This document shows positions 4,399 through 32,277 of a stretch of DNA of 33,083 nucleotides, piece by piece. The first letter of the stretch is position 1; every line of letters starts with the position of its first letter. Both the position numbers and the translations under genes were made by a program. The notes under the pieces are model-generated. The model saw only the letters and a program-made list of their open reading frames with translations. It searched no databases and had not been told where the DNA came from. The stretch is taken from the IMG/VR virus record IMGVR_UViG_3300025687_003918, positions 1-33,083 of that record. One strand, written 5' to 3'. The stretch comes from a virus.

Positions 4399-5168
4399 TG
4401 TCGTTCTATATCGTCTTCATCACAATCAGCACCATATTGTATTTCAACTACACGCAACGGTTCTTTAAAAGGATTAGTTAGTTGGTGCCAGCCTTCGACG
4501 GGAATGTGTGTTTCTTGGTGTGGATCAAGCACCAAAGACGGTAATTGGTATCTGCTATTGGTTTGCGTATTAACCATTGCACGACCTTCGCTGACAATCC
4601 AATATTCAGAGCGTTTAAAATGTCTTTGCATACTTAAACTTTCACCTGGATTTACTGTAAGTTCTTTAACTTTCATCCCGGGTACTTCGTGTAATACACG
4701 ATAATATCCCCATTGACGTTCTGTTTTTGGGGACTTCCATTCTTCTAGAATCCAGCTACTTGAGTTTGCTTTGTCTTCGCCGCCAACACCAAACGCAAAT
4801 TCTACTTCTTCAAATTTCATTTCCGGAATATTATCTTTAGTACGGTCGCCGCCATTGGCAAAAACAACACCTTCAAATGGGTACCAACTGTTTGGATTGT
4901 TACAAACTTTAAGTGCATGTTCAATAGCAGCGCACGCTGATCCGTCTGAATCATCAAATGCAATAACTTCGTCAACACAGCCAAGTGCACCTACAATAGC
5001 AGCACGCTCTTTCCAGGGCATAAAGTAACGTCCTTTTTTACGAACAAGCCAATCATCAGAATTTACGCCTACAATTAAATAAGCGCCTAAATCTTTTGCT
5101 GCTTCTAGATAGCGGATGTGTCCGCTGTGAATTGGGTCAAACCCCCCGGTTGCTACTACAATTTTCAT
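4395..5168 (-). CDS. Nucleotidyltransferase fused to a sugar-isomerase-type cupin
   Basis: 257 residues with two domains. Residues 1 to about 130 form a cytidylyltransferase-like domain: GGFDPIHSGHIRYL includes the HxGH nucleotide-binding motif (14-17), and ANGGDRT (104-110) fits the second signature. This resembles the HldE/RfaE adenylyltransferase half. Residues 149-257 are a cupin with QRHFKRSEYWIVSEG (181-195) and HIPVEGWHQLTNP, the core of type II mannose-6-phosphate isomerase/mannose-1-phosphate guanylyltransferase C-termini. The combination suggests isomerisation and activation of a sugar phosphate in one polypeptide. First gene of the left glycan operon; a late-type promoter ends 6 bases before its ATG and no Shine-Dalgarno is visible. 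Confidence 0.85.
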   Translation of the reverse strand: MKIVVATGGFDPIHSGHIRYLEAAKDLGAYLIVGVNSDDWLVRKKGRYFMPWKERAAIVGALGCVDEVIAFDDSDGSACAAIEHALKVCNNPNSWYPFEGVVFANGGDRTKDNIPEMKFEEVEFAFGVGGEDKANSSSWILEEWKSPKTERQWGYYRVLHEVPGMKVKELTVNPGESLSMQRHFKRSEYWIVSEGRAMVNTQTNSRYQLPSLVLDPHQETHIPVEGWHQLTNPFKEPLRVVEIQYGADCDEDDIERQ

Positions 5169-5173
5169 TGTAG

Positions 5174-5181
5174 TATTTATT
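5174..5181 (-). promoter_or_regulatory. T4-type late promoter box of the glycan operon
   Basis: Minus-strand AATAAATA followed by CTACA and then ATG. With T4 geometry (box at -13 to -6) transcription would begin exactly on the A of the start codon at 5168. There is no Shine-Dalgarno between box and ATG, and the HxGH motif close behind the first methionine rules out a later start. Confidence 0.6.
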
Positions 5182-5198
5182 AAGTACGCAGATAATGA

Positions 5199-5939
5199 TT
5201 AATCTTCGCCAAACCAGTGTAGGCTACGATCAAGCCATTCTAATTCAAGATCTTGCTGTCGTAAATAGCCAAAACGATTAATACTTGCACAAGCACTTGG
5301 CGGCAATAATTCTGTTTCTGCTAGATGATACCAACGTGTAGTACGAGGATCAAATGGTTCTGTTTCTGTTTTGTATGCAATTGCTTTAATCCAGGGATCG
5401 CCAGGATGTTTCTGCATAAATGCACAATCAAACCCATTAATTGCTAGCATGTGCAACAAACTAACTGTGGTATAGTTGTGGTATGCATAATCTGGTTGAG
5501 TAATAGATAATCTAGTGTATTCTACTTCAGTGTACGAAGGGACTACCATAGCGAGCATACCGCCAGTGGATAGTAAATTCCTCCAGCGTTTTAATGTTCC
5601 TAATGGATCCAGAGCATATTGAAAACTGTTGTTTGCCCATATAACATCAAACGGTTTATCTGTTTCGTATAATTCTAAGGTTTCAAATTCTTTTTTACGA
5701 TATGTAATATTTTTATAAGGTTTAATATCTGGTACATTGTCAACTAAGTCAACTCCAACACAGCGAATATTTAATGGTATAAAATCTCCATTATCGTCTT
5801 CAAGCGCACGTGTTGCCCACCAGATTAGATCTTGGCCTGTACCACATCCCATATCTAGTACAGAATCAACGCTTTCCATAAAACTATCATAAGATCCTAA
5901 TAGATCTAGTGTTGTCTGACCGGAATTAAACTGAAACAT
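5199..5939 (-). CDS. Class I SAM-dependent methyltransferase, Methyltransf_11/25 type
   Basis: 246 residues. VLDMGCGTG (27-35) is motif I, GVDL the acidic end of strand 2, FDVIWANNSFQYALDP motif IV and LLSTGGMLAMVVP the post-IV strand, the usual order of small-molecule or sugar methyltransferases. The C-terminal 80 residues (RTTRWYHLAETELLPPSAC and on) are a substrate cap I do not recognise. The ATG at 5937-5939 overlaps the end of uvsY by 14 nt with GGAAG just upstream, so it is co-translated with the recombination genes. It could act on a glycan precursor, given the next genes, or on an unrelated metabolite. Confidence 0.8.
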   Translation of the reverse strand: MFQFNSGQTTLDLLGSYDSFMESVDSVLDMGCGTGQDLIWWATRALEDDNGDFIPLNIRCVGVDLVDNVPDIKPYKNITYRKKEFETLELYETDKPFDVIWANNSFQYALDPLGTLKRWRNLLSTGGMLAMVVPSYTEVEYTRLSITQPDYAYHNYTTVSLLHMLAINGFDCAFMQKHPGDPWIKAIAYKTETEPFDPRTTRWYHLAETELLPPSACASINRFGYLRQQDLELEWLDRSLHWFGED

Positions 5940-6378
5940 CTTCCATTCCTGCTGTTCTTAACTTAACAATGTGGCCCATTTGCCATTGTTTTGTATCTAA
6001 TCCTTTCATGATACCTAACCAACGATTTCGTAACAATGCTACTTCGTTGATAATCAATTCCATATCGATTACTTCGGCTTCTCCGTCAACATACTTTTCA
6101 GCATCTCGACTTGTTAGTGCGCGACTGTATGCTTCAAGGTATTTTTGAAAGTGCTTACGCCGAATTTTACGCAATTCAATATTTAAAAAATTCAATACAG
6201 CTTCAATTTCCTGTAGCTGATTAAAACGATGTTCGGTAACACCCGGCAACAATTTAATATTTTGTTCTACATTACCGCCAATACGAACCTCTCGCTTTGC
6301 TTCCTGTAATTCATCATTGTAATAATCAATGAATCCAGGAAGCTCGCCAAGGTTCTTAGTTACCTTATTATACCACAT
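5926..6378 (-). CDS. uvsY: UvsY-like recombination mediator
   Basis: 150 residues, against 137 in T4. The C-terminal two thirds follow the T4 UvsY pattern: a basic helix (RKIRRKHFQKYLEAYSRALTSRDAEKY), a short acidic spacer, then a helix of the form LLRNRWLGIMKGLDTKQWQMGHIVKLRTAGME that parallels the end of T4 UvsY. Family knowledge: UvsY hexamers load the UvsX recombinase on ssDNA covered by gp32. Position supports the call, with uvsX two genes upstream and the ATG overlapping the preceding stop as TAATG. The N-terminal 40 residues match nothing I recognise. Confidence 0.75.
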   Translation of the reverse strand: MWYNKVTKNLGELPGFIDYYNDELQEAKREVRIGGNVEQNIKLLPGVTEHRFNQLQEIEAVLNFLNIELRKIRRKHFQKYLEAYSRALTSRDAEKYVDGEAEVIDMELIINEVALLRNRWLGIMKGLDTKQWQMGHIVKLRTAGMEDVSV

Positions 6379-6635
6379 TAGTAATTGTCGTTTTCGTCGT
6401 CGTCTTCGTAAAAGCCGTAGTCATCGTCGTCATCATCTTCGTATACTAATTCTTCATCAGCATACTCAGCTAAACTTTTAATAACATAACTATCTTGTGC
6501 AACTGCTGCAACGTCGTTAGCATTCATTCCGTTTTCAATTAATACGGCAGCAAAATCATCTGCTGCTTGTTGAAAGCCGCCGCTAATATGCGGACGCAGT
6601 GCTTCCCAAATTTCCATAGCCAAATCAGGACTCAT
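6378..6635 (-). CDS. Small acidic protein between uvsX and uvsY, unknown function
   Basis: 85 residues. The first 60 look helical (MEIWEALRPHISGGFQQAADDFAAVL), and the last 25 are almost entirely aspartate, glutamate and tyrosine. Such a tail could mimic DNA or bind a basic partner. The gene overlaps the end of uvsX by 11 nt and joins uvsY by TAATG, so it is embedded in the recombination operon and probably made in step with UvsX and UvsY. Small acidic proteins at this position occur in marine T4-like phages, but I know of no assigned function. Confidence 0.75.
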   Translation of the reverse strand: MSPDLAMEIWEALRPHISGGFQQAADDFAAVLIENGMNANDVAAVAQDSYVIKSLAEYADEELVYEDDDDDDYGFYEDDDENDNY

Positions 6636-7752
6636 ATTCTTCTTCTGCTCCTAGTGAATCAGCAACATCTTCGATAACATCTTCTGCAATGTCATCTACT
6701 GTGTTTACTTCTTCGGTACTTATCTGTTCTTCAGCAAAAGCAAAATCTTGCATGAGTCGATCGAGAATACCGTCGGCGTTAGATTCCCATGCTTTGCGGA
6801 AAGCAAGTACTTCTTCACCGGTAGTACGTTCTACAAAACGTAAACGGTTGCCTGATTTAGTAAGCAATCCTTTCTTTTCTGCTAGATCAACTAATCCCGA
6901 ATATGGATTCATTCCGGTTTCATAAGGAATCTTAACCTGTACTGCTTCAAACGGTTTTGCGTAACGAGTCTTCATTACCTTACACGCTGCACGAATACCT
7001 TGTACTTCTGAGGTTTTATTGCCATCCTCGTCTTCTTTAAGTTTAAGTTTACGCATTGCTACTACAATTGAACTTGCGTAAATAAATCCTTGACCACCCG
7101 AGATCTTATCATCTGGGTCGAACATATCTTGGCTTGCGTATGTGTGATTAGTTGCTACAAGTCCTACATTGTATGCGCCAATCATGTTGACTGTATTACG
7201 AACAAGTGCAGTTAGTGCCTTGGGCTTACGGCCCAGATCACCCTTCATGTCACCTTTTTCAAACTGATCAACATCAGTCGGGGTCAACAACATACCCAGC
7301 GAGTCAATGATAAACAGCACCTTTGGACGTTCTTCTTCGGGCATGCCTTTATAATCTTTCATAAACATTGAGATAGTCTTAGCAACATCGTCAATCATGC
7401 TCATGCTAAGTTTCAATAGTTTATCTTCTGAAGTGTCAACACCCAGCGCATGCAACCATGCTTCGTCTAGTGCGTTTTCTGAGTCAATCATTACAACAAA
7501 GATACCTTGTTGCTGTGCGTGTTTGGCAATATTGCCGGATACAAAGTACGACTTACCTGCACCCGATTCACCTGCAAATACAGTAACCTTGCCCATAGGG
7601 ACACCTTTGTGAAAATCTCCCGAGATAAGATAGTTAAGTGCGTAATTGCCGGTTGAAATCCAATCAGTTGGATCATTGAATCCAATACTAAGTCCGTCGA
7701 TAGATTTTGTGATATCTTTGCGGAACTTGCTTACATCAAATGGTTTAGCCAT
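6625..7752 (-). CDS. uvsX: UvsX, RecA-like strand-exchange recombinase
   Basis: 375 residues, close to the 391 of T4 UvsX. GESGAGKS (61-68) is the Walker A motif, VLFIIDSLGML (145-155) the Walker B strand, and VGLVATNHTY (197-205) the RecA-type strand ending in the polar sensor region. SGGQGFIYASS matches the L2-adjacent segment. An acidic C-terminal tail (ISTEEVNTVDDIAEDVIEDV) fits the family. UvsX forms filaments on ssDNA and drives recombination-dependent replication with UvsY and gp32, both in this window. A sigma-70-like promoter and an AGAGGAAG ribosome site lie directly upstream, fitting early or middle expression. Confidence 0.97.
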   Translation of the reverse strand: MAKPFDVSKFRKDITKSIDGLSIGFNDPTDWISTGNYALNYLISGDFHKGVPMGKVTVFAGESGAGKSYFVSGNIAKHAQQQGIFVVMIDSENALDEAWLHALGVDTSEDKLLKLSMSMIDDVAKTISMFMKDYKGMPEEERPKVLFIIDSLGMLLTPTDVDQFEKGDMKGDLGRKPKALTALVRNTVNMIGAYNVGLVATNHTYASQDMFDPDDKISGGQGFIYASSIVVAMRKLKLKEDEDGNKTSEVQGIRAACKVMKTRYAKPFEAVQVKIPYETGMNPYSGLVDLAEKKGLLTKSGNRLRFVERTTGEEVLAFRKAWESNADGILDRLMQDFAFAEEQISTEEVNTVDDIAEDVIEDVADSLGAEEEYES

Positions 7753-9607: not shown

Positions 9608-10585
9608 TTATGAGGACTGCCGTGCGCGAATCATAGCAAGGATATCTTGTGCCTTGTCTGCGCTCGCTGCTGGCGCTGCTTCTACCTTAGGTTCTTCTAC
9701 AGGTGCTGCTGTTGGCGCTGATGCTACTTCTGCTACAGGTGCTGCCGGAGCCGCTGCTACTGGAGCAGGTGCTGCTGCACGAGGTGCATCATCGTTGCCA
9801 AAGTTCATACCTGCCGGTTTGAAATAAGACCCCCACTTATCTGGATCGTATGCCTTGCCATCAACTGATGCTTCAAACATTTCAGTCATAACCTTCAATT
9901 CAATGTCACCTGGCTTGTTAGGAAGGAACGATTTGAGATCAAATAAGCCATACTTTTCAATCGCTTCCATTTCGTCTGCATTAAGCGCAGATTCCTTACG
10001 AGCCCAACTCGAAGTTGAATAATCAGCATAACCACCCTTAGTGGTCTTTGTAATGCGGAAGTCAAGTCCATTATTATAATCAGTTGGCAATTCTTCCATA
10101 TCAGGATCCATTAGTGATGCCTTAATGGTAGTAAAGATTTGCGGACTAATAATGAACCGACGAATTGGATTCTCAGGTGTCTTGTCGTCTTCCATTGGAT
10201 TGGCATGAACAAAACCCTGGAACAAGTAACTACGCTTCTTCCAGTATTTGCGACCCATATCTTCTAGCGATGGATCTTTGAACCAAGTGCGAACTTCTGT
10301 CAAAATTGGACACGTTTCATTCCACATTTCTACGCAGGGTACTGTCACAACAACCTGCTTGTTATCTCCGCCTACCACGCCGTTGAATGGCAAACGAATC
10401 ATTTGGCGTTCAATCCAAAAGAATGGGTTAGAGGTGTCACCATCTGGAAGGAAGCGGACAGTTGCAGTATCCCCTTCATTAATGTTCCAGTGTGGGTAAA
10501 TGGCGTTGTCGCCTTGGAAAGTTGAGCCTGCGCTCTTGTTTTCTTGTGCTGCTAGACGAGCACGAATATCTGCTAAAGATGCCAT
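9608..10585 (-). CDS. 32: gp32 single-stranded DNA-binding protein
   Basis: 325 residues against 301 in T4. The start MASLADIRARLAAQENKS is the basic N-terminal cooperativity arm, followed by YPHWNINEGDTATVRFLPDGD and FFWIERQMIRLPFNG, the opening strands of the OB-fold core. The zinc region is reduced: only C84 and C92 are present, in ...VPCVEMWNETCPIL..., where T4 has three cysteines and a histidine. Residues 267-310 are an alanine/proline-rich linker, and the protein ends QDILAMIRARQSS, echoing its own N-terminus. It coats ssDNA during replication and repair and would work with UvsX and UvsY. Expression appears to be driven by overlapping early and late promoters and a repeat-bearing leader. 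Confidence 0.93.
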   Translation of the reverse strand: MASLADIRARLAAQENKSAGSTFQGDNAIYPHWNINEGDTATVRFLPDGDTSNPFFWIERQMIRLPFNGVVGGDNKQVVVTVPCVEMWNETCPILTEVRTWFKDPSLEDMGRKYWKKRSYLFQGFVHANPMEDDKTPENPIRRFIISPQIFTTIKASLMDPDMEELPTDYNNGLDFRITKTTKGGYADYSTSSWARKESALNADEMEAIEKYGLFDLKSFLPNKPGDIELKVMTEMFEASVDGKAYDPDKWGSYFKPAGMNFGNDDAPRAAAPAPVAAAPAAPVAEVASAPTAAPVEEPKVEAAPAASADKAQDILAMIRARQSS

Positions 10586-10738: not shown

Positions 10739-11608
10739 TTATGTGCGAGATATTGTTAAAACACGATTCCACACACCTGTAGACACCTGTAGACCCTGTT
10801 TTTGAAAGTATTCCGGTGTTTTATCGCGATCTGTACCAAAAAAAGTTTTTATGTATGTAGGTGCGTGATCAGGCTCCGGTTGACCGCCATCATCGATTAA
10901 CCAATATTCAAAGCGCGATTGTTGCTTGTCTATTAAAATACGCCATGTTTCTAATAAATCCCACTCTGTCATACTTTGATGTTCTGCTGTAGGGCCGTAT
11001 CCAATAATACGTTCTTCTCGCATTAAGTTAAAATGAACAATGTTTGAGTCGTTACCGTTTACATCAGATATATGCCTATATAACCCATGTAAATCATCTC
11101 TAGATACCCATCTAACAGGAATATGATGCGTGTATACATTATCGCCGTCGATGTTTAATGTTTCGCTGATTCCTAGCATTTGTTTTAAATACGAATACTG
11201 CTGCGCATTAATTAATGTATTGTGCGTCTTTTGATAATTGTACGGAACTTCGTTTGCGGCAATTAGTCTTTCGCAAATAACATCTCCGTCTGTTACGTAC
11301 CAAAGATCACCAGGCAAAAATCTATCTAAATTTAGTTTTATCAGTTGTTGCCGTAACCATCCATCCCATATATAAGGAAATTTAAATTCCGAAAATAACG
11401 TGTAAGTGGGATTTAATCCAGGAAAATTTAGATTAATTGCTGTTTTTAAATCTTGTAAATAATTTGGCCAAGCATCCCATTGCGGACCCAAATCATCCAC
11501 AAAAATATACCAGGACGGACGCCATTCAGTTATTTCCAAAAAGTTTTTGATGGTACCTAGTGTGGATAAAAAATGGCCAGGATAATTTATGAGTGCTGCT
11601 GCGTGCAT
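10739..11608 (-). CDS. Glycosyltransferase-like protein (DUF6492-like)
   Basis: 289 residues. LWYVTDGDVIC near residue 102 supplies a DxD-type metal motif within a GT-A-like strand, preceded by FKFPYIWDGWLRQQLIKL, a pattern I associate with DUF6492 glycosyltransferases. YWLIDDGG and the C-terminal GTDRDKTPEYF are not diagnostic. It stands alone: a terminator lies upstream, its own late-type box abuts the ATG, and the gp32 promoter begins 11 nt before its stop codon. It is therefore probably a late gene used during virion assembly or host-surface modification. No Shine-Dalgarno is visible. Confidence 0.65.
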   Translation of the reverse strand: MHAAALINYPGHFLSTLGTIKNFLEITEWRPSWYIFVDDLGPQWDAWPNYLQDLKTAINLNFPGLNPTYTLFSEFKFPYIWDGWLRQQLIKLNLDRFLPGDLWYVTDGDVICERLIAANEVPYNYQKTHNTLINAQQYSYLKQMLGISETLNIDGDNVYTHHIPVRWVSRDDLHGLYRHISDVNGNDSNIVHFNLMREERIIGYGPTAEHQSMTEWDLLETWRILIDKQQSRFEYWLIDDGGQPEPDHAPTYIKTFFGTDRDKTPEYFQKQGLQVSTGVWNRVLTISRT

Positions 11609-11614: not shown

Positions 11615-11622
11615 TATTTAAC
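11615..11622 (-). promoter_or_regulatory. Late-type promoter box before the lone glycosyltransferase
   Basis: GTTAAATA followed by CTTTAT and then ATG. The predicted start is one base before the ATG, so the transcript would be essentially leaderless. Confidence 0.55.
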
Positions 11623-11672: not shown

Positions 11673-14600
11673 TTAGTTGCCCATTCCCGCTAATCGTTTG
11701 ATATCTGCTAATGCTGCATCAATTTGTGCGCTTAACTCAGCACCTTTATCAGCAATCTTATCGCCTAAGTTCTTTTCTTTAGGTTCTGCAGACACAATTT
11801 CAACATCCATGTCTGAGGGAATACCTACAGGAACATCAGTTGGCTCTAACATGCCCACTGGATTTTCTGGACGGTCTAGTTGGCTAGTAGCAGTAATGCC
11901 GTGTCCTAGTTCCAGGTCTAAGTCGTTTTCTAGTTCTGTTAAACTTTCATAAATGCCCTTGCCAAACATGTTTGATCCTCCGGTAGTTTCGCCTTCGCCT
12001 TCTTTTGCCATCTTGGTAGCAGTTGCGTACATGACTTCTTCACCACGCTTACCGTAACGCTTTTTGAAGTCTGCTTTTGATTTCTTCATGCCCTTAACAT
12101 ACTTTTCGCGTTTCTTTTCTTCGCCTTTGGTTAGAGAACGTTCGTCTAGTTTAGGTTCTTCACCAAAGAAAGCATCAACTTTCCTTTCGCCATATCTGTC
12201 ATCAAGGACTTGTCTAATTGCACCTGCTTTATCATAACCCTTTAGGTCAACAACACGATGATTGCGTCCAATGATGTTGCGAAGATCAGCAATGGACTTT
12301 TTCTTAAGTGCTTCGTAGTCTTTATAGATTGGTGAAGACTTATCTAACTTAGCTTCATCAAGTTCGACATCTTCTGCTACAGTTCTAATAATTTCAGCAA
12401 TCCTTGATGCTGTGGCTTGTGGATATGTCTTAACTGCCCACTCAAATTCTTTTTCAATCATTTTCTCAACCGCTTCAGGATTGTTGCCGTATTTTACTAG
12501 TAATTTAGCTACGCTATCTTTGGTAACTTGTGATTCATCATTGTTTTTCTTTTGCTGACTCTTCTTTTTTTGCATCATTGCAGCATAGTTTTTGGGTATT
12601 TTATAACCAGCTTCATCAAGGTCAGATTCTTTGCTTTCGCCTTTTAGCCCAAGATCCATTACATCCATTCCCATCTTTCTGGTAGTCGGAACTTTGCTCT
12701 TGCTACCGTCACCATGCTTGGCTAGGTATTGATTCCACGCTTCATCGCTGCCTGGAGCAAATTCACGTTCTTGATGTGCTAGTGCTGCGGTTTGATCTGA
12801 TGCTGGATTAGTGCCATACTTAGCACTTACACGATCTAGATCATCAATGTCCATTTGATCGCTCCAGCCTTGACCTACATTAAGTCCTTTCTTTTTACCA
12901 GTTAAGTTATCTAGACCTAAGTCCATTACTTTAATACCAGCGTTCTTCTTAAGACCTGCAAGTTCTTTATCTGTAGCAGCCCGGTTTCTTTCATAGTCTG
13001 CTGTAGAACCTGCATCACGACCTAGGATACGAGCAACTTCCATATCTCTATAGAACTTGTCTTCTTTATCCTGTGCTGCTTTTTTAATAGCATCTGCTTT
13101 TGATCTTGCTGCTGCTAGTTTTTCTGGTGTAACACCTTGATCTAAACCATACTTTTTAAGCATCATTGATCTACGTAGATCATTTCCGGCTTTGTAAGAA
13201 CCGCTAGTTAACCAATTTTCAATTTCGTCCCACTCATTGTCAGCATCCATATCGTACTTGGTCATGTTGTCTCTAGCCCAATAATCTGGATCCATGTTTG
13301 GATCTCTCCAGTTTGATAAATTTCCTGAAGGGCCTACTAACACTCCCTTAGGACCTACACGAGAATAACCCGGTGGTAATTCTTCTCTTGGTGCTTCTTC
13401 AAGTTTCTCGTCCTGCATGCCTTCTTTGCCAGGAACAATCTGTTCTGGATCTTCAATTTCGTTATCTTGCTGACCAAACTTACCAGCGTTAGCTTCTTGT
13501 GTCTTCTTTGCTCCGGGAGCAATTGTTGGCTGCGGCTTAGTTGGCTTACGATCAAAACCGTAATTAGGATCGTCACGTGGGTCGTCGCGTTCTGGATCGT
13601 ACGGTTCTGTGTCTGCTGGTGCAAACCAATCAACACCTTCCTTACCCAGTTCGCTTGCGTTTAGTTCGCCTAAAATATCATCGTTTAACTTAGCAGCACG
13701 TTCGTCTTCGGTCATTTCTAACAAGCCTAGTTCGCGTGCTTGTTTTTCTAGTTTAGCAATAGCATCCTGAATTGCTTGCATGCTTTCTAAATCTTTTAGA
13801 TTAGGATCCATCATCATGTTATACAGATGCTTGCTCTTGACTAGAAAATCTTCGCGATTTTTAATTTGTCCGCCTGTGCTTGGATCATCTAAATCGCTGT
13901 ATGCTTCCTGAACTGGTTCTTGGAATGCAGTAAAGTCTTCGTATACTTTTTCTTGCATGCCTGCTAGTTTGCGCCATGCATTCATTTCCAGCATGTGATC
14001 GCGCTCTTGTTTGCGTTGTTCTTCACCGGTGTCAATATCTAATTGCTCACCAACTGCTTCTTTGTTTAATTCATCTTCTTGATAGGCTTTTAGCTCATCA
14101 ATTGAGTCAAAAGGACCAGCAACAACTTTGCCATTTACTAGTGCAAAGAAACCTTGTGCGGTTTTAATAGCACTCATTCCATATTTGTTCATTCCACGTG
14201 CGCCAACATCCGCAGCTTCTTCAAACTCTAGTTCATCAGTATCGGTATCGCCAAATACACGAGCTGCTAGGTCTTCTAATCCAGGATAGCTATCGCTGTA
14301 TTCTTCAATCCAATCTTCAATTACGCTGCGAGCATCTGCTTCTGGGTCTTGATCTGCTAGTGTACCTAACCGATCAAACAGTTCATCATCTCCAATAATG
14401 TCGTATAACACATTAGTAGCGTTCATAGCGTCAACTCCAACTGGTAGAGGTTGTGCTAAAATATCTTTTAATTCTTTGATTTTAGCTTCGTCATCTGGAA
14501 TAGCCCAGGTGCCTTCAGTTACGTTTTCCGCCCAGTTGGCAAATTGATCAAATTCTTTCATGATTGGTTCCTTGGATTGGGATGGTTGTAAGTTTTGTGC

Positions 14601-15526: not shown

Positions 15527-15534
15527 TATTTAGC
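15527..15534 (-). promoter_or_regulatory. Late-type promoter box of the 1276-residue gene
   Basis: GCTAAATA followed by CT. The predicted start at about 15521 leaves an 18-nt leader with a weak GAAGAAA before the ATG at 15503. Confidence 0.6.
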
Positions 15535-19729: not shown

Positions 19730-19735
19730 ATTTTT

Positions 19736-19743: not shown

Positions 19744-19749
19744 TAAATA
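19742..19749 (+). promoter_or_regulatory. Late-type promoter box, plus strand, HNH nuclease gene
   Basis: AGTAAATA followed by CT. With T4 spacing the start falls on the second ATG at 19755, which would make the transcript leaderless. Confidence 0.45.
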
Positions 19750-19751
19750 CT

Positions 19752-21540: not shown

Positions 21541-21544
21541 GTAA

Positions 21545-24645: not shown

Positions 24646-25200
24646 TTAACTTCCTACTGGACTTTTTGTGCCTTGTGGAAGATCGTTTGTAGTTTGTGCT
24701 TTTGGTGTTTTGCCGCCTGCAATTTCGTACTCACGCTTTTCCATATCTGCAACCACATTCTGAAAACTATTACCATATGCTGCGCCGGCTGCTTTTTGTT
24801 CTGCGTTTTGTTCGGGGAGTGTTTGGTCGTCTAGTAATGCGCCTTCGTGTTCTTTAGCAGCAACTTCTGCATCCATGCTGTCGTTAAATCTACGATCTAG
24901 GATTACAATGCGATTTTCAGCAATACCTAATTTTTGCATTAGTTCTGCTAGTTGTCCTGTGCTTGCTGGATATTCAAAAACTACGTCAAAAATGTTTACA
25001 GACTCATTTTCTAAGCCTGGAAAATCATATGGACATTTCATAACAGGTGTAGTTTTCATGTCAGACATACTAACCATGTTAAATTTAGCAAAAAGTTTCT
25101 TTAGTGCATCGACGTGTTCTTTAGGACAGTCGCCTGCAATTTTGACGCGATATTCGTAGTTCTTTTTAGATTCTGTTAAAAATTCTGTTAGCGAGCGCAT
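24646..25200 (-). CDS. Uncharacterised protein with a T4 internal-protein-like leader
   Basis: 184 residues. MRSLTEFLTES matches, position for position by type, the capsid-targeting leader of T4 internal proteins (basic residue at 2, E-F at 6-7, then hydrophobic-x-E at 8-10), with a predicted prohead-protease cut after E10. The body has an alpha/beta part (YEYRVKIAGDCPKEHVDALKKLFAKF, NIFDVVFEYPAS) and a disordered, glutamine/lysine-rich C-terminus. Expected role, if the leader works: packaged in the head and delivered with the DNA. Translation appears controlled by the hairpin over its ribosome site. Function of the mature protein unknown. Confidence 0.8.
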   Translation of the reverse strand: MRSLTEFLTESKKNYEYRVKIAGDCPKEHVDALKKLFAKFNMVSMSDMKTTPVMKCPYDFPGLENESVNIFDVVFEYPASTGQLAELMQKLGIAENRIVILDRRFNDSMDAEVAAKEHEGALLDDQTLPEQNAEQKAAGAAYGNSFQNVVADMEKREYEIAGGKTPKAQTTNDLPQGTKSPVGS

Positions 25201-25223: not shown

Positions 25224-25231
25224 TATTTATG
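25224..25231 (-). promoter_or_regulatory. Late-type promoter box of the 184-aa gene
   Basis: CATAAATA overlaps the gp16 stop codon. The predicted start near 25218 lies inside the 5' arm of the hairpin at 25203-25222, so late transcripts would lack most of that arm and leave AGGAG accessible. Confidence 0.6.
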
Positions 25232-25715
25232 CGTCGTTGTTCTTATTTGGATTCAATAGTTTGTCAAGAAGTTCGTTTCTATCAAGAACATGACCAGTTG
25301 CTGTTGCACCGCCTTCGTTATCGCCTCTATCAGCATCAAGTTTTGCCTTCTTTAATTGTAAATCAATCATTTTAAGTTTCTTGTTCATCTTAGCAGTTTT
25401 AGCAGTAATAGCGTGCCCAAGCAACGAACTTGCTACACTAAAGATTTCTGAGCTGAATCTTGCTTCAACATTCATACCTAGGTCAACTAGATCTTGGTAC
25501 GTCTTCATTGCTGTTTCAGCAAGTTGATCCATTTCTTTATCAGATGCTTCAAGATTCTTAACAGCAGGAAGTGCAGCATCAATCTTTTCTAGATTGGTAT
25601 ATCCTTCATAGGTTTGTGGAATACCAAATGACTCTTCAGGTTCGTCAACAATGTCTACTTCTTCATCAGATGAGGAGGGAGGTAGATTAAATAGTTCTTC
25701 TAGTTTTTGTGACAT
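25227..25715 (-). CDS. 16: Small terminase subunit gp16-like
   Basis: 162 residues, against 164 in T4. An acidic start (SSSDEEVDIVDEPEESFGIP) leads to helices matching the gp16 layout: SDKEMDQLAETAMKTYQDLVDLG, then FSSEIFSVASSLLGHAITAKTAKMNKKLKMIDLQLKKAKLD as the central coiled coil, and a flexible C-terminus with VLDRNELLDKLLNP resembling the TELMDEI end of T4 gp16. gp16 forms rings that recognise DNA and regulate gp17. A late box ends 6 bases before its ATG and there is no close Shine-Dalgarno. It follows gp4 by 8 nt. Confidence 0.75.
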   Translation of the reverse strand: MSQKLEELFNLPPSSSDEEVDIVDEPEESFGIPQTYEGYTNLEKIDAALPAVKNLEASDKEMDQLAETAMKTYQDLVDLGMNVEARFSSEIFSVASSLLGHAITAKTAKMNKKLKMIDLQLKKAKLDADRGDNEGGATATGHVLDRNELLDKLLNPNKNNDA

Positions 25716-25720: not shown

Positions 25721-25728
25721 TATTTAGC
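25721..25728 (-). promoter_or_regulatory. Late-type promoter box of gp16
   Basis: GCTAAATA, then TCTTT, then ATG. The predicted start coincides with the A of the ATG at 25715. The box overlaps the stop codon of gp4. Confidence 0.55.
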
Positions 25729-26164
25729 GGCTCTTTCCTTGATGAAACATATCTTTTTCTGTAATAACTCTAAAAGTTATTCCTTGACGCTTACACCAAT
25801 GTTGTGCAGCTTCCCATTTGGCGTAATTAACTGCTACTGTAGCACGTTGTTGTGGATTTTGTTTTTCGGTGAGCATGCTTTGTCCAGACGGTTTAATTTC
25901 TACTAACTCTGCTCGCTGCTTGCCATTTTTATCTCTATAAATTACTAAAAAATCAGGCACATAAATTGTTTGTTTGCCTGTTAGAGGATGTCTGTACGGA
26001 ATACTAATACTTTCGCTTGCCCACTGCATTATATGTTCGTTGTTATCTAAAAAGTTCATAAAAGAAAGTTCCCACGAACTACGATAACGAGGTTTGCCTT
26101 TACCAACATACTTGTTAGCGTTCCGAACTTCATAAACTCCTTGTGAGAATTTAGGTTTAGCCAT
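25724..26164 (-). CDS. 4: Head completion nuclease-like protein gp4
   Basis: 146 residues. RYRSSWELSFMNFLD (Glu32), ISIPYRHPLTGKQTIYVPDFLV (Pro70-Asp71) and ELVEIKPSG (Glu89, Lys91) form a TnsA-like PD-(D/E)xK arrangement, the signature of T4 gp4/gp50 homologues; T4 gp4 is about 150 residues. The basic N-terminus (KYVGKGKPRYR) fits the marine phage versions I recall. The protein completes the filled head before tail joining, probably by trimming or protecting the DNA end. It follows the previous gene with a 1-nt gap within the structural operon. Confidence 0.85.
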   Translation of the reverse strand: MAKPKFSQGVYEVRNANKYVGKGKPRYRSSWELSFMNFLDNNEHIMQWASESISIPYRHPLTGKQTIYVPDFLVIYRDKNGKQRAELVEIKPSGQSMLTEKQNPQQRATVAVNYAKWEAAQHWCKRQGITFRVITEKDMFHQGKSR

Positions 26165-26165
26165 T

Positions 26166-26519
26166 TTAGATTGCTACGTTTCTCGCAGCGTAATAGTCTG
26201 GTGTAATAACTTGTCCAACACCTAATAATGTTGAATTTGAACGTGTACTATTTAGATAGTAGGCCATACTCATTGTTAATTGCATTTCATTTTGACCTTG
26301 GAGATTCTCAAGGTAAGTCTGTACAGAAACACCAGTGTCTTTGGCAATTTGAAAAATATTAGCAGCAAATTGTTCTGCTAGTACAGGGTCTGTCATCATT
26401 TTTTTAAAAAATGACACTGTAAGATCGTATTCGGATGTACTAACTACAAGTTCTACATTATAAAATTTGTCATAAATTTTAGTTGTGGTTGTGGTTCGTT
26501 CAATATTTACAGTTGCCAT
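26166..26519 (-). CDS. Small conserved protein of the tail/head operon, unknown function
   Basis: 117 residues starting MATVNIERTTTTTKIYD. ATG at 26517-26519 forms a TAATG overlap with the previous stop and has GGGAAG upstream; the longer frame would use a TTG. Helical in the middle (EYDLTVSFFKKMMTDPVLAEQFAANIFQIAK), then a polar helix (EMQLTMSMAYYLNSTRS), and an end VITPDYYAARNVAI. Similar small proteins sit beside the tube and head-completion genes of marine T4-like phages and are called structural without a defined role. No catalytic motif is visible. Confidence 0.75.
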   Translation of the reverse strand: MATVNIERTTTTTKIYDKFYNVELVVSTSEYDLTVSFFKKMMTDPVLAEQFAANIFQIAKDTGVSVQTYLENLQGQNEMQLTMSMAYYLNSTRSNSTLLGVGQVITPDYYAARNVAI

Positions 26520-27868
26520 TATTCTTCCCAATAATAATTTACGTTGCTTCCGTTACTCGATACATCAGACTGTTGGGTACCTGGTTTTAGGCTTGGGTCT
26601 GTTGCTGGTAAATTTGGATTTACCCAAGGTTTAGCTATTGGATTAGTTGCTGCTGATGATGCAGATGTGCTAACAAACGTTGAACCTGTGTTTGGGTTAG
26701 TCCAGTTTGTTGCACTAGTAAATCCACTATTACTTACTGTAGTTCCAGACCCTAGTGGTAAATTATTAGTTGCGCCTTCGGCTTTGGGAAAAATAAAATT
26801 ACTAATTGAATTTTGTACATTTTGATTAGTTAATACTGCTGTAGTTGCCAATGCTAATTGGCCAACACCTTCTTCAGCAAGCATGCTGCCAAGGTCAGAA
26901 TCTTTATATGTGTTATAAGCTGTTCCAGCAGTTAGCAATGCTCCAAGAACATTTCCATTTTGTAGGTCGCTGATAACATCTGCACCAGCATCCAATAATC
27001 CGCCTGCGCCAAAAATAGTTTCTGTGCTGCCTGGTTTAGATAATTTACTCGGTTCAGTATCATACATAGAACCTTCACCAAATCCACGCACTGCTCCACC
27101 TTTAACTTGACCGCGTTGATATTTGACAGTTTCGTATTTAATGGTCATTTGATTAGTCATTGTGCCGCCACCTTGACTGTAGTCAAACTGATCATGCGCC
27201 CAATTAGTGATCATTGGATTTATTAATGTATACTGTACAAAGTTTCCTCTATTAAGTCCATAAATTTTAATGTCCTTGAAGAAATTTGGTTTGTAATCAG
27301 TTGGTCCAGTTCCTTGATATCCCCATTCGTTTACATTGCGCAAATTATCGTAAATATCTCTGCGATTATAATCAAATATACCGTTGCCCAAACCAGTACT
27401 TGTGTCAGTGCCAACTCCATCGTAGCTGTGTTTTGCATCAGAAAAATAATAGGTATAATAGTTATACCACATGCTGCGAGTTAAATCACTACCGTCGTCG
27501 TGAAAAGAAATATTAACAGGCTCGTAATTTAACTTAGTTTGTACGTAACGTTTGCGATTGTACTGGTTCAGCTCAGCAACATCAATATTGAACCGCGGAA
27601 GGTCGGCGGTTTTGACCATCATGCCGATAGTAGCCCTATCAGTTGCCGAGGTTCCTAGTGCTTGAGCTAAACCAGGAATCACATCAGTGTTTATTGTAAA
27701 ATAAACATGGAATAGGTATTTGGTTTGCGGTGCAAGCGCATATCCGTCCGATAAGAACGTTTTGCTTGCGTGTTTGTAATCCTTTAAGTAGTCGCTGCCA
27801 AACAGTCCTTGTGTAAGACCATCGCCAAAACCACTTAGTAAATTACTAAGTGTGCTACCAAATCCCAT
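26519..27868 (-). CDS. Tail-tube-fold protein, probably baseplate tube initiator or cap (gp48/gp54-like)
   Basis: 449 residues. YLFHVYFTIN (about 51-60), VKTADLPRFNIDVAELNQYNRKRYVQTKLNYEPVNISFHDDG and SMWYNYYTYYFSD follow the strand pattern of a T4-type tube protein: a fibre-forming hairpin, NYEPVNISF and a conserved tryptophan helix. It is much longer than the tube protein next to it and ends in a glycine, serine, threonine and asparagine-rich tail from about 350. T4 makes the tube with gp19 and uses tube-fold relatives gp48 and gp54 to start it on the baseplate; position directly after gp19 fits that role. Which of the two it is cannot be told. Confidence 0.7.
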   Translation of the reverse strand: MGFGSTLSNLLSGFGDGLTQGLFGSDYLKDYKHASKTFLSDGYALAPQTKYLFHVYFTINTDVIPGLAQALGTSATDRATIGMMVKTADLPRFNIDVAELNQYNRKRYVQTKLNYEPVNISFHDDGSDLTRSMWYNYYTYYFSDAKHSYDGVGTDTSTGLGNGIFDYNRRDIYDNLRNVNEWGYQGTGPTDYKPNFFKDIKIYGLNRGNFVQYTLINPMITNWAHDQFDYSQGGGTMTNQMTIKYETVKYQRGQVKGGAVRGFGEGSMYDTEPSKLSKPGSTETIFGAGGLLDAGADVISDLQNGNVLGALLTAGTAYNTYKDSDLGSMLAEEGVGQLALATTAVLTNQNVQNSISNFIFPKAEGATNNLPLGSGTTVSNSGFTSATNWTNPNTGSTFVSTSASSAATNPIAKPWVNPNLPATDPSLKPGTQQSDVSSNGSNVNYYWEE

Positions 27869-27874: not shown

Positions 27875-28492
27875 TTAGCCAGTTACTACTGAACCTAGTG
27901 TACGTCCTATCGCTGTACCAACGCCTGAATCAAGAGGAGTTTGTAATGCATTATCAAAGCGAATGTTTAATCCCATAGTAACAGGAGCACTATCGCTATA
28001 TGCTAAATCGTTGTAGTTAACACTGGTTAAATAACAACCGTAAAGTTCCCAGGTCTCTAGTACAGTCGGTTCATTTGCGCCATTGCCGCCATCTAAGATT
28101 TCGCAACGTGTAATAAACTTGTAGTCAATACCAGAACTTGCTGAACTCATTTCCATAAAGTCAAATTGCTTTTGTAGTTGTTCGCCAACTAGCTTACTAA
28201 CATTACCTGCAGCATCGTCACGTAAGTTAACTGTAGTGTCATCCCAAGTATGCTTGCCAGCTAAACGTACTTTTGAGTTATAGATATCAATTGTCATATC
28301 ATCAAAACTTACGCTTGGGCGAGCAAAGTCAATTACTTGTTTGGTTAGTTCTGTACGTGGTGTGCTTACACCAAAGTTTTCAAAAATAATGCGAAAGCGA
28401 TATTTTAGCTTTGGCATTAATAGACCTTGAGTCGAGCTTGATTGGTCACTCGCTAAAGGTACTGTCATTCTAGTTAATGATGAAACCGCCAT
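27875..28492 (-). CDS. 19: Tail tube protein gp19
   Basis: 205 residues, longer than the 163 of T4. KLKYRFRIIFENFG, TKQVIDFARPSVSFDDMTIDIYNSKVRLAGKHTWDDTTVNLRDD and VLETWELYGCYLTSVNYNDLAYSDSAPVTMGLNIRFDN are the classic tube strands: the DIYNSKVRLAGKHTW segment and the W-x-LYG-x-Y turn are particularly clear. It polymerises as hexamer rings into the inner tube through which DNA passes. It lies directly after the sheath gene but has its own late promoter and an AGGAG ribosome site, and a terminator separates the two, so tube and sheath doses can differ. Confidence 0.93.
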   Translation of the reverse strand: MAVSSLTRMTVPLASDQSSSTQGLLMPKLKYRFRIIFENFGVSTPRTELTKQVIDFARPSVSFDDMTIDIYNSKVRLAGKHTWDDTTVNLRDDAAGNVSKLVGEQLQKQFDFMEMSSASSGIDYKFITRCEILDGGNGANEPTVLETWELYGCYLTSVNYNDLAYSDSAPVTMGLNIRFDNALQTPLDSGVGTAIGRTLGSVVTG

Positions 28493-28523: not shown

Positions 28524-28531
28524 TATTTATC
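28524..28531 (-). promoter_or_regulatory. Late-type promoter box of gp19
   Basis: GATAAATA; predicted start near 28518 and a 26-nt leader containing AGGAG before the ATG at 28492. Confidence 0.65.
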
Positions 28532-28598: not shown

Positions 28599-31500
28599 TT
28601 ATAAACCTGCTGCGATTGAGCCAGTGTTCTTAATACGTACTGGAATGTAAACGTATTCCACAGCCTTAACTGGTTCAATAGCAATGTCAACGTATAGTTC
28701 ATTACGATCAATTCGTGCTGCTGTGTTATTTGATTCATCACACACAACTAGATAATCGTAGATACCACGTTTTGCGATTAGATCGTTCATTAAGCCTTCG
28801 ATCTGATTCTTAATTTCATCACGTGTTAGTTTGTCATTTGGTTCAAAGATGAATCCTTTAGCAATTGATTCAACTTGATTACGAACAAACGCTACTAAAC
28901 GTGCCACGTTAATACGATCTAATGCTGTACCACTTTGTGTAGTCTTATTACCATAGTTAACTAGACCAGTGCCTGGAATAAAGGTTAGTGGGTTAACATT
29001 GTTTTCGTATAGTGTATCACGAACGCTTGAACGGTTTGCAATTTGTACAAACGAACCTGTTTGCGCATTTACATAACCTAATGCACTAACATTATCAATT
29101 GTACCACGGCGTGTACCTGCTGGTGCTAGCCATGGATAACCAATTTCGTCATTGCGGATTAATGTGCGTAACATCATATGACTTGGCGGAACAACCACTG
29201 TATTGCCACTTAAATCGTTTGTTTGTCCGCTTGGATAGAAAACACCTAAATAGTTGTCAGTTGTTGTTAATCCGTCTGCTGTGCTTAGTCCGGTACCTGA
29301 ATTATTTGTAGCCCAGTCAATTAAGCTAGCGCCGCTATCGTCTAATCGTAGCGGAGTGTCGCCAACTACAAAACCAGTTTGATTACGATCGTTGTTTAAT
29401 GCAACCAGGTTTGAAATCAATTCTGGATAACCAGGAGCAGCAATTAAGTTAAACACACGTTGTTCTTCACGAATTTCTGTGTTGGCATCAATACCACTTG
29501 CTAGAGCACGTGTAACAATACGACGCTGTGCTTGACGTCCCATATATGGGCTACCGTCGTTCTTATTGCCAGATGCGGTTACCCACGCATTCTTTTCTGT
29601 TGGTAATGTTTCACCTGGATAATCAGTTGCATTAAAGTGATTTAACACAAACTGCTTAACATTGTAACCACTGCGACGAGTGTTAAACAACAACGTACCT
29701 GCTGGATAGTTAGCAGCTTCTGGAGCATCTAAATCTAAGTAGTTACTAGAGAGCAAGCTAGAAATTGTTGGAACGCTGTCAGTAATAGGATCAACTGTAC
29801 CTGCTGTACCCCAGCGTGCATCTGCAAATACAACGCCATTCTCAGTTGTGCTATCCGTATTATCAATCGTTACCCATTGATCAACACCGTCAACTGCTTC
29901 CCAACGCTTAATCATTGGGTAGTTTTCTAAATCTGATGTATCAATCCATAAGTCGCCGTAAGCAAGTGCTGTAGCATCGCTTTGTGTAGTTGGTGCTGTA
30001 GCGCCAACTTGTGGGCCTGCAGGATCTGTATCAGTTAGGTCAAAACCGCGAACATCGTTGCTAACAGTTAGATAACCTTTCCAGTTACTACCATCATGAA
30101 CCATAATGTCAACTTCATTAATTGTACTGTAATACCAATATGTACCGTCCGCTGGGTCTTGACCTGGTGCTGTACTATTAGCAGAGTAACCTGAACCGTC
30201 TGGATTCTCTAGTGGGATCCAGTTGCTTAGAATAACACCTTCTGCTGTACCATCAATTAAGCGAGCAGTTACACCGTCAACAGATGTAGCAAATCCAGCA
30301 TCTGCAACAGGAGTACCTGATGTATCTTCTAAGTGAATAACACCACCTTGTGTATGAGTAATACGAATAGCACCTGTTGTTAGTACTTCTGCTGTAGTAT
30401 TTGCAACACCTGCTGCTAGGAATGCTGCAACAAAATCTGCTGCGCCAGTGCCAGCTAATGTAGCTGTTAACGGAGCACTCATTGTAGCACTACCTTTACT
30501 GCTTGCGCTAATAGTAAATGTTTCCCCGCTAGTAAATGATGGAGTAGTTGTATTACCAACAATTGCGGTAGAACCACTTGCTTGACGCTGGAATAATTTT
30601 AATGTAGCAGTATTGTTATCGCTGATATCATAACGTGCATATGTTGAACCAACAGCTAACGCACTGCCGCCGTTGCTTGGATCTAAGTTATAGTTTGCAG
30701 TTTCGTCGTTTGCATAAACCGAGCAACTCTGCGATACAAAACTACCAAGTGTGCTATCGTATTTCTTAACGCTTAGGCTAGTACCTAAATTAACATTAGT
30801 TGTTTTAACCCATACACTTCCCGTTGGACGCGGAGTAGTATCAGTGCTTCTCCAACGCGGAATAGAAGTGTGTGCTGATTGTTGTAATACAGGAGCATAA
30901 TATGTACCTGCAGTAATACCTAAATCAGCCAACGGAGTACCTGAACCATTTGCAATAGTAACACTAATGTCTTCAGAACTTAAATCGTCGCCTGCGCCAG
31001 ATTCAACATGAATAGCTAGCTTGCTGCTAACTGCGGATGCGGTAACACCTGTAATTGCAGCACCATTGATATCACTAACAACACTTGCAAGTGTTGTGCC
31101 AGTTAAACTAATTGTGGTACCGTTAATAACAATGCTATTACCGTTAGTAACCGTTGGCGATGTAGTAGAACCTAAAATAGTGTTTAAACTTGCTTTCCAA
31201 TCATCTGAACCAATTAATACCCAATCATTACTTAAATTCTTGCGGTAAATTGGATTGTTTACATTTGTTGCAACAACAGCGTAACTACCAATTGTTCCTA
31301 AACTGTCTTTAGGAATGCCAGAATCTAAATCGCTAGCATTAGTAATAACTAGTGGTACTTTATTAGTGAATGCGCCGGTTGTTGAGCTCCATTCAAAAAT
31401 ACCCCAAGTTGTCGAAACTGTGTCTAACCACCAAGTGCCATTATCTGGGCTACCAGTTGGTCGAGTTAAACTAGCAGCTAGTTCAGCTAGGTCAACATCA

Positions 31501-31835
31501 ACACGCTGTACATAAGCACGGTTGCTAACACCCAAAACTGAATAAGCAGCTAATAAGCCATACTCGTTTAATTCATAACCGTTAATTGGAGTACCTGCGG
31601 TTGTATTATAAAAGAATGGATTACCAAAAGTGTTCACAAGTTCTCTTTGACTTGTGATTAAATAAGTAGCGTTAGCGTTTGAAGCCAATGTGCCTGCTGC
31701 AACGCCTGTTCCTGCTGCGTTAACTTTATTCTGTGCTGTAGCAATTAGAATAAATGGTACGCTGTTGGTAGCAGACGAACGGTATGCGCTCTCATCGATA
31801 ATTGAGACTTCTACGCCTGGTGAAACTAGTGCCAT
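28599..31835 (-). CDS. 18: Contractile tail sheath gp18 with a very large insertion
   Basis: 1078 residues against 659 in T4. MALVSPGVEVSIIDES is the conserved sheath start and residues 675-1078 carry the conserved C-terminal half (LASGIDANTEIREEQRVFNLIAAPGYPELISNL, then RNDEIGYPWLAPAGTRRGTIDN and AVEYVYIPVRIKNTG). Residues about 125-670 are an extra surface region: GxxW units at 133 (GTWWLDT), 339 (GSVWVKT), 564 (GTYWYYS) and 627 (GDLWIDT), and two related domains at about 224-315 and 430-525, both with an SGTP(L/V)AD(L/A)G turn. The first looks like a hook-IN-type segment (IVINGTTISL...ITGVTASAVSSKLAI). The sheath contracts to drive the tube through the cell envelope. Confidence 0.95.
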   Translation of the reverse strand: MALVSPGVEVSIIDESAYRSSATNSVPFILIATAQNKVNAAGTGVAAGTLASNANATYLITSQRELVNTFGNPFFYNTTAGTPINGYELNEYGLLAAYSVLGVSNRAYVQRVDVDLAELAASLTRPTGSPDNGTWWLDTVSTTWGIFEWSSTTGAFTNKVPLVITNASDLDSGIPKDSLGTIGSYAVVATNVNNPIYRKNLSNDWVLIGSDDWKASLNTILGSTTSPTVTNGNSIVINGTTISLTGTTLASVVSDINGAAITGVTASAVSSKLAIHVESGAGDDLSSEDISVTIANGSGTPLADLGITAGTYYAPVLQQSAHTSIPRWRSTDTTPRPTGSVWVKTTNVNLGTSLSVKKYDSTLGSFVSQSCSVYANDETANYNLDPSNGGSALAVGSTYARYDISDNNTATLKLFQRQASGSTAIVGNTTTPSFTSGETFTISASSKGSATMSAPLTATLAGTGAADFVAAFLAAGVANTTAEVLTTGAIRITHTQGGVIHLEDTSGTPVADAGFATSVDGVTARLIDGTAEGVILSNWIPLENPDGSGYSANSTAPGQDPADGTYWYYSTINEVDIMVHDGSNWKGYLTVSNDVRGFDLTDTDPAGPQVGATAPTTQSDATALAYGDLWIDTSDLENYPMIKRWEAVDGVDQWVTIDNTDSTTENGVVFADARWGTAGTVDPITDSVPTISSLLSSNYLDLDAPEAANYPAGTLLFNTRRSGYNVKQFVLNHFNATDYPGETLPTEKNAWVTASGNKNDGSPYMGRQAQRRIVTRALASGIDANTEIREEQRVFNLIAAPGYPELISNLVALNNDRNQTGFVVGDTPLRLDDSGASLIDWATNNSGTGLSTADGLTTTDNYLGVFYPSGQTNDLSGNTVVVPPSHMMLRTLIRNDEIGYPWLAPAGTRRGTIDNVSALGYVNAQTGSFVQIANRSSVRDTLYENNVNPLTFIPGTGLVNYGNKTTQSGTALDRINVARLVAFVRNQVESIAKGFIFEPNDKLTRDEIKNQIEGLMNDLIAKRGIYDYLVVCDESNNTAARIDRNELYVDIAIEPVKAVEYVYIPVRIKNTGSIAAGL

Positions 31836-31866
31836 ATTGATTTCCTCATTAATATGTTGTTATATC

Positions 31867-31874
31867 TATTTATT
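31867..31874 (-). promoter_or_regulatory. Late-type promoter box of gp18
   Basis: AATAAATA; predicted start near 31861 and a 26-nt leader with GAGGAAA before the ATG at 31835, the same leader length as gp19. Confidence 0.65.
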
Positions 31875-31922
31875 AGTTTCACCATAAATCAGCGGTTTAT
31901 AAAGACCTTTCAAAGGCCTGTG

Positions 31923-31930
31923 TATAAGTA
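31923..31930 (+). promoter_or_regulatory. Late-type promoter box of the HNH-like gene
   Basis: TATAAGTA followed by TCTGT and ATG. The T4-spaced start falls exactly on the A at 31936. One base (G at position 6) departs from the consensus. Confidence 0.5.
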
Positions 31931-31935
31931 TCTGT

Positions 31936-32277
31936 ATGGAAAGACCGCTATGTTCTGAGTGCAAAAAGCAACCTTGTGCTATAAATTACAAAAAAGAAGG
32001 TAAAACTTTCTACAGATCTAAATGTAACAAGTGCAACGGCAAGCGTAAAAAGCCTTACGTTCCTCGCTGGCGGCAAAAAGGATATAAGCAGAAGGCAGTT
32101 TGTGATAGATGTGGATTCCGTGCAAAGTATCCTTCACAAATAGTTGTGTTTCACATCAACGGGGATTTAAACGATGCTACTATTACAAATCTACGTAGCG
32201 TTTGTTTAAATTGTGTGGTGGATATTGATAAGCAAGATTTACCTTGGAAGCAAGGCGATCTTACGCAAGACTTTTAA
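31936..32277 (+). CDS. HNH-like zinc-binding protein
   Basis: 113 residues. Two cysteine pairs, C6/C9 and C30/C33, form an N-terminal zinc finger; a second site uses C56/C59 and C90/C93. Between the latter lies VFHINGDLNDATITNLRSVC, with His73, Asn75 and Asn85 in HNH-like order, but the catalytic region is short. I recall related proteins in T4-like cyanophages near structural genes. It may be a homing nuclease, a processed packaging nuclease or a DNA-binding factor. On the plus strand, divergent from gp18 and overlapping the convergent exonuclease by 17 nt. Its late box implies a leaderless transcript. Confidence 0.75.
   Translation: MERPLCSECKKQPCAINYKKEGKTFYRSKCNKCNGKRKKPYVPRWRQKGYKQKAVCDRCGFRAKYPSQIVVFHINGDLNDATITNLRSVCLNCVVDIDKQDLPWKQGDLTQDF

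Follow-up and report, generated by a model that had tools for sequence, protein, structure and literature searches.

Late transcription in phage T4 is a textbook system, and its late genes carry leaders with Shine-Dalgarno (SD) sequences. The T4 late box spans positions -13 to -6, and the -35 region is not conserved (PMC2988020). For the T4 genes e, soc, 49 and I-TevI, expression is restricted to the late phase by RNA structures that cover the initiation site (PMC3014915). Members of Deinococcus-Thermus have leaderless genes next to a -10 element (PMC12340547), and leaderless phage mRNAs are also known, for example that of lambda cI (PMC9031893). Here we consider a set of TAAATA boxes lying directly before start codons in a 33,083-bp stretch of viral DNA (the window), which is the entire IMG/VR record IMGVR_UViG_3300025687_003918 and a partial genome of a T4-superfamily myovirus. 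No description of leaderless late genes in T4-like phages was found in the literature searched, which covered few subscription journals; start-site maps of cyanophages or phiKZ may have appeared in the others. What appears to be new is a start-adjacent, predicted leaderless late class as a variant of the T4 late promoter system.

The T4-late-type box TATAAATA, with the core TAAATA, is placed relative to genes in a manner that exceeds chance, both in the window and in its relatives. A sequence-only reading of the window had reported six such boxes next to the start codons at 5168, 11608, 19729, 19755, 25715 and 31936, and all are present on direct reading, with 5, 6, 6, 5, 5 and 5 intervening bases, respectively. 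It had described the element as xxTAAATA usually followed by CT; the box itself holds, but CT follows in just three of the six cases. Longer spacing together with an SD, claimed for gp18, gp19 and a 184-aa gene, is also borne out (31, 31 and 23 nt). The boxes and the genes predicted to be leaderless are the following.

5174-5179, minus strand: TAAATA box, full form AATAAATA, 5 nt to the ATG at 5168
4395-5168, minus strand: predicted leaderless gene, cytidylyltransferase-like (nucleotidyltransferase) with a mannose-6-P isomerase C-terminal domain (cupin)
11615-11620, minus strand: TAAATA box, 6 nt to the ATG at 11608, with a terminator-like hairpin and T-run upstream of the box
10739-11608, minus strand: predicted leaderless gene, DUF6492-like
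19736-19741, minus strand: TAAATA box, 6 nt to the ATG at 19729 of the radical SAM gene 18725-19729
19744-19749, plus strand: TAAATA box, 5 nt to the ATG at 19755 of an HNH endonuclease gene
19755-20297, plus strand: predicted leaderless HNH endonuclease gene, starting at 19755 and not at 19752
25721-25726, minus strand: TAAATA box, 5 nt to the ATG at 25715, its TAA also terminating the reading frame of the head-closure gene upstream
25227-25715, minus strand: predicted leaderless gene for a 162-aa protein, located downstream of the head-closure gene
31923-31930, plus strand: box variant TATAAGTA, 5 nt to the ATG at 31936
31936-32277, plus strand: predicted leaderless HNH endonuclease gene
31867-31872, minus strand: leadered-class TAAATA box, 31 nt to the gp18 ATG, SD present
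28524-28529, minus strand: leadered-class TAAATA box, 31 nt to the gp19 ATG, SD AGGAG
25224-25229, minus strand: leadered-class TAAATA box, 23 nt to the ATG of the 184-aa virion gene 24646-25200, SD present
15527-15532, minus strand: TAAATA box, 23 nt to the ATG of a 1276-aa structural gene (11673-15503), SD weak

Five of the 37 exact TAAATA boxes in the window lie 4-7 nt before the ATG of a called gene, where 0.07-0.3 would be expected (P ~2e-8 for an expectation of 0.07), and none of 2000 shuffles of the window's upstream regions reached five. The hexamer is rarer than expected over the window as a whole (37 against a shuffled mean of 50), and the complete decamer TATAAATACT does not occur in the window. 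Counting the box at 31936 with the others is justified because TAAGTA is the sole one-letter variant clearly enriched 5 nt before starts in relatives (16 against a mean of 1.45). The box at 19744-19749 lies 2 nt from an alternative ATG at 19752; close orthologues begin at the position of 19755. The 25 bp separating the ATGs at 19729 (minus strand) and 19755 (plus strand) hold two opposed boxes, with leader space on neither side. The long-spaced gene 11673-15503 had not been listed by the sequence-only reading, and its orthologues belong mainly to the short-spaced class.

Box-to-ATG distances were collected from genes called with a simple codon model in eight records of the environmental clade to which the window belongs and in eight comparison phages, using 200 kb each for SCTP-2, GAP32, Atu_ph07, Vibrio 2.275.O and the clade record G002, and whole records for all others. 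This comparison with chance had been suggested together with the sequence-only reading, and the spacing in relatives proves far sharper than chance. In the clade the distribution is bimodal: distances cluster at 4-7 nt (mode 5), fall off at 9-16 nt and rise again to a second, broad mode at 17-35 nt. The eight records together have 129 boxes in the four positions 4-7 versus 20 in the eight positions 9-16. Other permutations of the box letters give 5-19 occurrences at 4-7 nt, the exceptions being three (59, 61 and 30) that, read in a shifted register, overlap the box or nearly match it. In G006, the most GC-rich relative (50% GC; 20, 0 and 18 boxes at 4-7, 9-16 and 17-35 nt, respectively), the peak is just as sharp as in AT-rich members. 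Most T4 boxes stand 17-35 nt ahead of the ATG and are accompanied by an SD, and none lies at 4-7 nt (0, 9 and 33 in the same three intervals), whereas about 40% of start-linked boxes in the clade lie at 4-7 nt and have no SD. The corresponding counts are 0, 4 and 34 in GAP32, 0, 1 and 22 in Syn9, 1, 5 and 32 in Atu_ph07, 2, 5 and 27 in Vibrio 2.275.O, 4, 4 and 37 in SCTP-2, and 2, 8 and 44 in PA5oct (33% GC), where the short mode is nearly absent. The idea that the trait is general to all T4-like phages was rejected, since T4, Syn9 and GAP32 have no short mode. Raw pattern counts in Melnitz, P-SSM2, S-PM2, KVP40, Sf-CH5 and two single-cell marine viruses put TAAATA-N4-6-ATG not clearly above N10-12, although such counts carry no gene filter and a few sites could hide in them, for example four 5-nt sites in Melnitz.

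The cultured Pelagibacter phage HTVC008M has the short mode (16, 2 and 13 boxes in the three intervals, 12 of them at exactly 5 nt), and it is repeated, more weakly, in the relatives of this phage in IMG/VR. All 17 of its listed short-spaced starts (4-8 nt) coincide with starts annotated in GenBank. The genes concerned include head-closure, baseplate, tail-completion, DNA end protector and tape-measure genes; the end-protector and head-closure genes at 18916 (minus strand) and 18943 (plus strand) are divergent, in a layout like that of 19729-19755 in the window.

The two spacing classes differ in their SD content. A 4-letter SD match is found at 7 of 142 starts with a box at 4-8 nt, where shuffled sequence gives 10%, compared with 164 of 215 starts with a box at 17-45 nt and 670 of 1282 starts with no box (Fisher P ~1e-45 and ~1e-31, respectively, against the short-spaced class). 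SD sequences are missing exactly at those starts where T4 geometry would allow no leader, and the predicted leaderless mode is one of two coexisting late modes, the other being SD-leadered.

Conservation was followed gene by gene, counting orthologues over distinct upstream sequences. Short spacing is found in 28 of 28 orthologues of the HNH gene at 31936 (at 4-6 nt), in 17 of 17 of the HNH gene at 19755, in 39 of 45 of the 1276-aa structural gene that is long-spaced in the window, in 7 of 10 of gene 5168 (each at 5 nt) and in 26 of 56 of gp17. For gene 25715, 63 of 74 orthologues have the box at 4-5 nt, and an SD accompanies it in only one of the 63; among orthologues with no adjacent box, nine of ten have an SD. 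Loss of the adjacent box is thus accompanied by an SD. Conservation at 11608 and 19729 is weakly tested, close orthologues being few: two of seven and two of four, respectively, are short-spaced, and for 11608 these are a close pair (92% and 78% identity) with a spacing of 5 nt and a terminator, the distant ones having no box. Conversely, long spacing is found in 55 of 55 gp19 orthologues (SD in all 55), in 25 of 29 gp18 orthologues (SD in 25 of 25) and in 56 of 56 orthologues of the 184-aa gene. In relatives, the portal gene and those of several virion proteins fall in the short class. The box is found at late genes (gp18, gp19, portal, virion) and essentially not at gp32 (0 of 34) or uvsX (1 of 32), an SD being present in 65 of these 66 genes. 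Because orthologues keep their spacing class, at about 50% amino-acid identity, being leaderless or leadered appears to be a stable property of each gene. The predicted leaderless class belongs to the whole clade, beyond this one phage.

The bases around the start fit the same geometry. The logo of 74 clade promoters with 5-nt spacing has at most 0.25 bits per position from -40 to -12, with no -35 signal. In long-spaced clade promoters the sixth base after the box is enriched in A (55%), and T4 is similar (A+G 77%). In the 5-nt class this sixth base is the A of the ATG, and a pyrimidine precedes it in 90% of cases, compared with 47% at no-box starts. Published T4 geometry and the purine peak at the sixth base would place +1, roughly a helical turn from the box, on the A of the ATG in this class. 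In the 7-nt class the fifth base after the box is A in 77%, followed by two pyrimidines and then ATG, which probably makes it a separate sub-class with a predicted 3-nt AYY leader. The pattern TAAATA-NNNNA-Y-Y-ATG is strong in clade promoters of this type, for example at the portal gene L195:9474-11252. Start codons at 4-7 nt are ATG (134), GTG (5) and TTG (1).

A search of 10 clade records and 14 named phages with phrog_234 finds the gp55 family in eight of the former and in all of the latter, so that the gp55-like sigma factor postulated by the sequence-only reading has candidate genes in relatives; the clade matches sit in open frames of about 300 aa, and the two clade records with no match, of 213 kb and 92 kb, are possibly incomplete. 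A terminator-like hairpin with a T-run lies directly upstream of 12 of 141 short boxes and 15 of 215 long ones, compared with 7 of 1281 no-box starts, as expected at transcription-unit boundaries.

Orthologues of 25227-25715 (e.g. L031, L038, L146 and L158) show a further feature: the box often forms the loop of a small inverted repeat ending at the ATG, with arms that vary between orthologues (GCGG-TAAATA-CCGC, GCCA-TAAATA-TGGC). A stem of at least 4 bp is present in 19 of 47 of them, against a permuted-arm maximum of 15 in 500 trials; in the window's copy the repeat was not observed. The hairpin was rejected as a general companion of the box, families 31936, 19752, 5168 and 15503 having no stem excess.

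The spacing mode, the SD loss, the conservation, the bases at the predicted +1, the gp55-like genes and the terminators all support late promoters positioned for leaderless mRNAs, as originally suggested. We put at about 85% the probability that the start-adjacent boxes are gp55-type late promoters yielding leaderless or near-leaderless mRNAs, beside a leadered late set. In this scheme, a gp55-type holoenzyme would initiate at the A of the AUG when the spacing is 4-5 nt, or no more than about 3 nt before it when the spacing is 6-7 nt, and the resulting SD-free late mRNA would be translated through initiation at its 5′-terminal AUG. The second set (gp18, gp19 and the 184-aa virion gene) would keep the T4 layout, with the box 17-35 nt upstream and an SD in the leader. 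An SD-free AUG within read-through RNA would be largely ignored and the gene would remain silent until the late sigma factor fires at its start codon, so that expression of the leaderless genes would presumably be gated to the late phase. Sigma usage, 5′ ends and leaderless translation are here inferences from DNA sequence.

This arrangement is close to several known systems. It shares with T4 late promoters (gp55/gp33/gp45) the TAAATA core, the inferred box-to-start geometry, the lack of a -35 element and a gp55-family sigma factor in relatives, and the gp18 and gp19 promoters are of the ordinary T4 kind; unlike in T4, the two bases preceding the core are weakly conserved in the clade. As at e, soc, 49 and I-TevI, a late promoter beside the start would make the sole translatable transcript, homing endonucleases included. 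In those T4 genes, however, a hairpin masks the SD and AUG and the SD is kept, whereas in the clade the SD is simply absent and a comparable hairpin occurs only in the 25715 orthologues. The missing SD would replace the SD-masking hairpins and would require little intergenic space, and the stem in the 25715 orthologues might provide an additional, T4-like lock. The two HNH genes agree with this parallel because homing endonuclease genes of the T4 type are likewise kept silent on early transcripts. In Deinococcus-Thermus, too, the SD is replaced by a promoter hexamer that abuts the start codon, and the mRNA is leaderless (PMC12340547), but there the hexamer is a sigma-70-type -10 element read by RpoD, while the clade has a phage late box and a leadered class sharing that box. 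The lambda cI mRNA similarly begins at its AUG but represents a single gene, not a genome-wide late class.

Some observations weigh against leaderless late promoters as the full account. Sigma genes are known from relatives, and the window, being a partial genome, has none. The 6-7 nt sub-classes may carry leaders of 1-3 nt instead of none. As many as 69 of the 142 short-spaced genes begin less than 30 nt after a same-strand gene, and translational coupling could contribute there. Finally, phage bS21 does not track the trait: 5 of the 10 clade records and HTVC008M carry S21 genes, but so do PA5oct, Atu_ph07, Phosso, SCTP-2 and Vibrio 2.275.O, none of which has a strong short mode, and three clade records (G004, G006 and G007) have the short mode and no S21 gene. 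In the absence of a correlation with the short mode, phage bS21 was rejected as its cause.

The alternative that survives best, although we consider it unlikely, is that the boxes are late promoters serving mainly downstream genes, while the adjacent gene is translated chiefly from read-through RNA by termination-reinitiation coupling or SD-independent internal initiation. The 69 closely following genes agree with it, as do the upstream stop codon formed by the TAA of the box at 25715 and the many no-box starts that likewise have no SD. However, translational coupling cannot explain the 40 short-class genes (of 142) that are transcribed divergently from the adjacent gene, nor the 32 others separated by more than 30 nt from a same-strand gene. 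It also does not predict the exact 5-nt spacing or the SD in nine of the ten box-less orthologues of 25715.

It is much less probable that the element acts as an RNA signal, for example a UAAAUA hairpin loop beside the AUG serving as a regulator-binding or cleavage mark. The stems in orthologues of 25715 would suit such a role, but the other four families have no stem excess, gp18 and gp19 have the identical box at a long, T4-like distance from the start together with an SD, terminators lie directly upstream of the box, and boxes are found at divergent genes that have no upstream same-strand transcript. We regard as equally improbable that the boxes are -10 elements for the host primary sigma factor, with leaderless genes as in Deinococcus-Thermus and no gp55-like sigma factor. 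In spite of the architectural match to the -10-adjacent genes of that group (PMC12340547), TAAATA at -11 to -6 does not conform to the sigma-70 -10 pattern (TANNNT), since it puts T where the most conserved A (-11) is required, and its positions 1-6 are the T4 late core. Moreover, gp18 and gp19, which are late genes of the T4 style, share this box; gp32 and uvsX (early or middle genes in T4) are essentially without it; and gp55-like genes are present in relatives. Chance or wrongly chosen start codons can practically be dismissed: the window is 62% A+T, the box is short and the start at 19755 rests on picking the second of two ATGs, but no shuffle reaches the window count, the spacing data of relatives refute an effect of AT-richness (20 versus 0 boxes in G006 at 50% GC, the mode being nearly absent in AT-rich PA5oct) and the HTVC008M starts are those of GenBank.

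Leaderless late promoters may have arisen more than once. In a gp17 tree the clade forms a single group (support 95/95), and HTVC008M groups with Syn9, which is without the trait, so that the trait label requires at least two changes; the tree, with just 20 rows and a very long T4 branch, supports two origins, short of proof. We give even odds to the broader proposal that two T4-superfamily lineages, the widespread environmental jumbo-type clade and the pelagimyophages, evolved a dual late programme. The sigma factor would in effect select the start codon, exchange between box and SD would switch the mode of a gene, and the leaderless mode would lock out early read-through expression. A leaderless late class that spans a clade, is specific to certain genes and is deeply conserved would turn leaderless translation from a curiosity into a standard strategy of lytic phages, and would link the choice of promoter to that of the start codon. 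In practical terms, the spacing gives a sequence-only route to late promoters where earlier methods failed, and start-adjacent boxes correct start-codon calls. One study of pelagimyophages reports that its attempts to predict late promoters failed (PMC7029224), and boxes next to start codons may be the reason. As a cultured phage, HTVC008M (grown on Ca. Pelagibacter ubique HTCC1062) makes leaderless late transcription directly testable and allows one to ask how ribosomes deal with leaderless mRNA during infection.

The remaining assigned genes of the window are listed below; it also encodes HNH endonucleases, radical SAM proteins and sugar-type enzymes, and an Rfam search of the window gave no match.

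28599-31835, minus strand: tail sheath gp18
27875-28492, minus strand: tail tube gp19
25724-26164, minus strand: head-closure gene
17167-18732, minus strand: large terminase gp17
9608-10585, minus strand: gp32-like gene
6625-7752, minus strand: UvsX
5926-6378, minus strand: UvsY

By gp17 comparison, the closest named phages are the PA5oct-type Pseudomonas phages, Phosso and Atu_ph07, at just 50-54% identity; many nearer relatives are present in IMG/VR, on contigs of up to 341,990 bp. The gp18 sheath protein has 1078 aa, and its match to the general tail-sheath profile phrog_23 (496 positions) is limited to residues 696-1072. The neighbouring genes 26519-27868 and 27875-28492 (minus strand) each match tail-tube families, the first product being extended (449 aa), and PA5oct, Atu_ph07 and Phosso carry an equivalent gene pair. 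Three genes for radical SAM-type proteins (15541-17151, 18725-19729 and 20401-21633, minus strand) flank the terminase gene, an unusual cargo for a packaging region. In the Agrobacterium phage Atu_ph07 (L162:19983-22174), the terminase large subunit is divided between two annotated genes.

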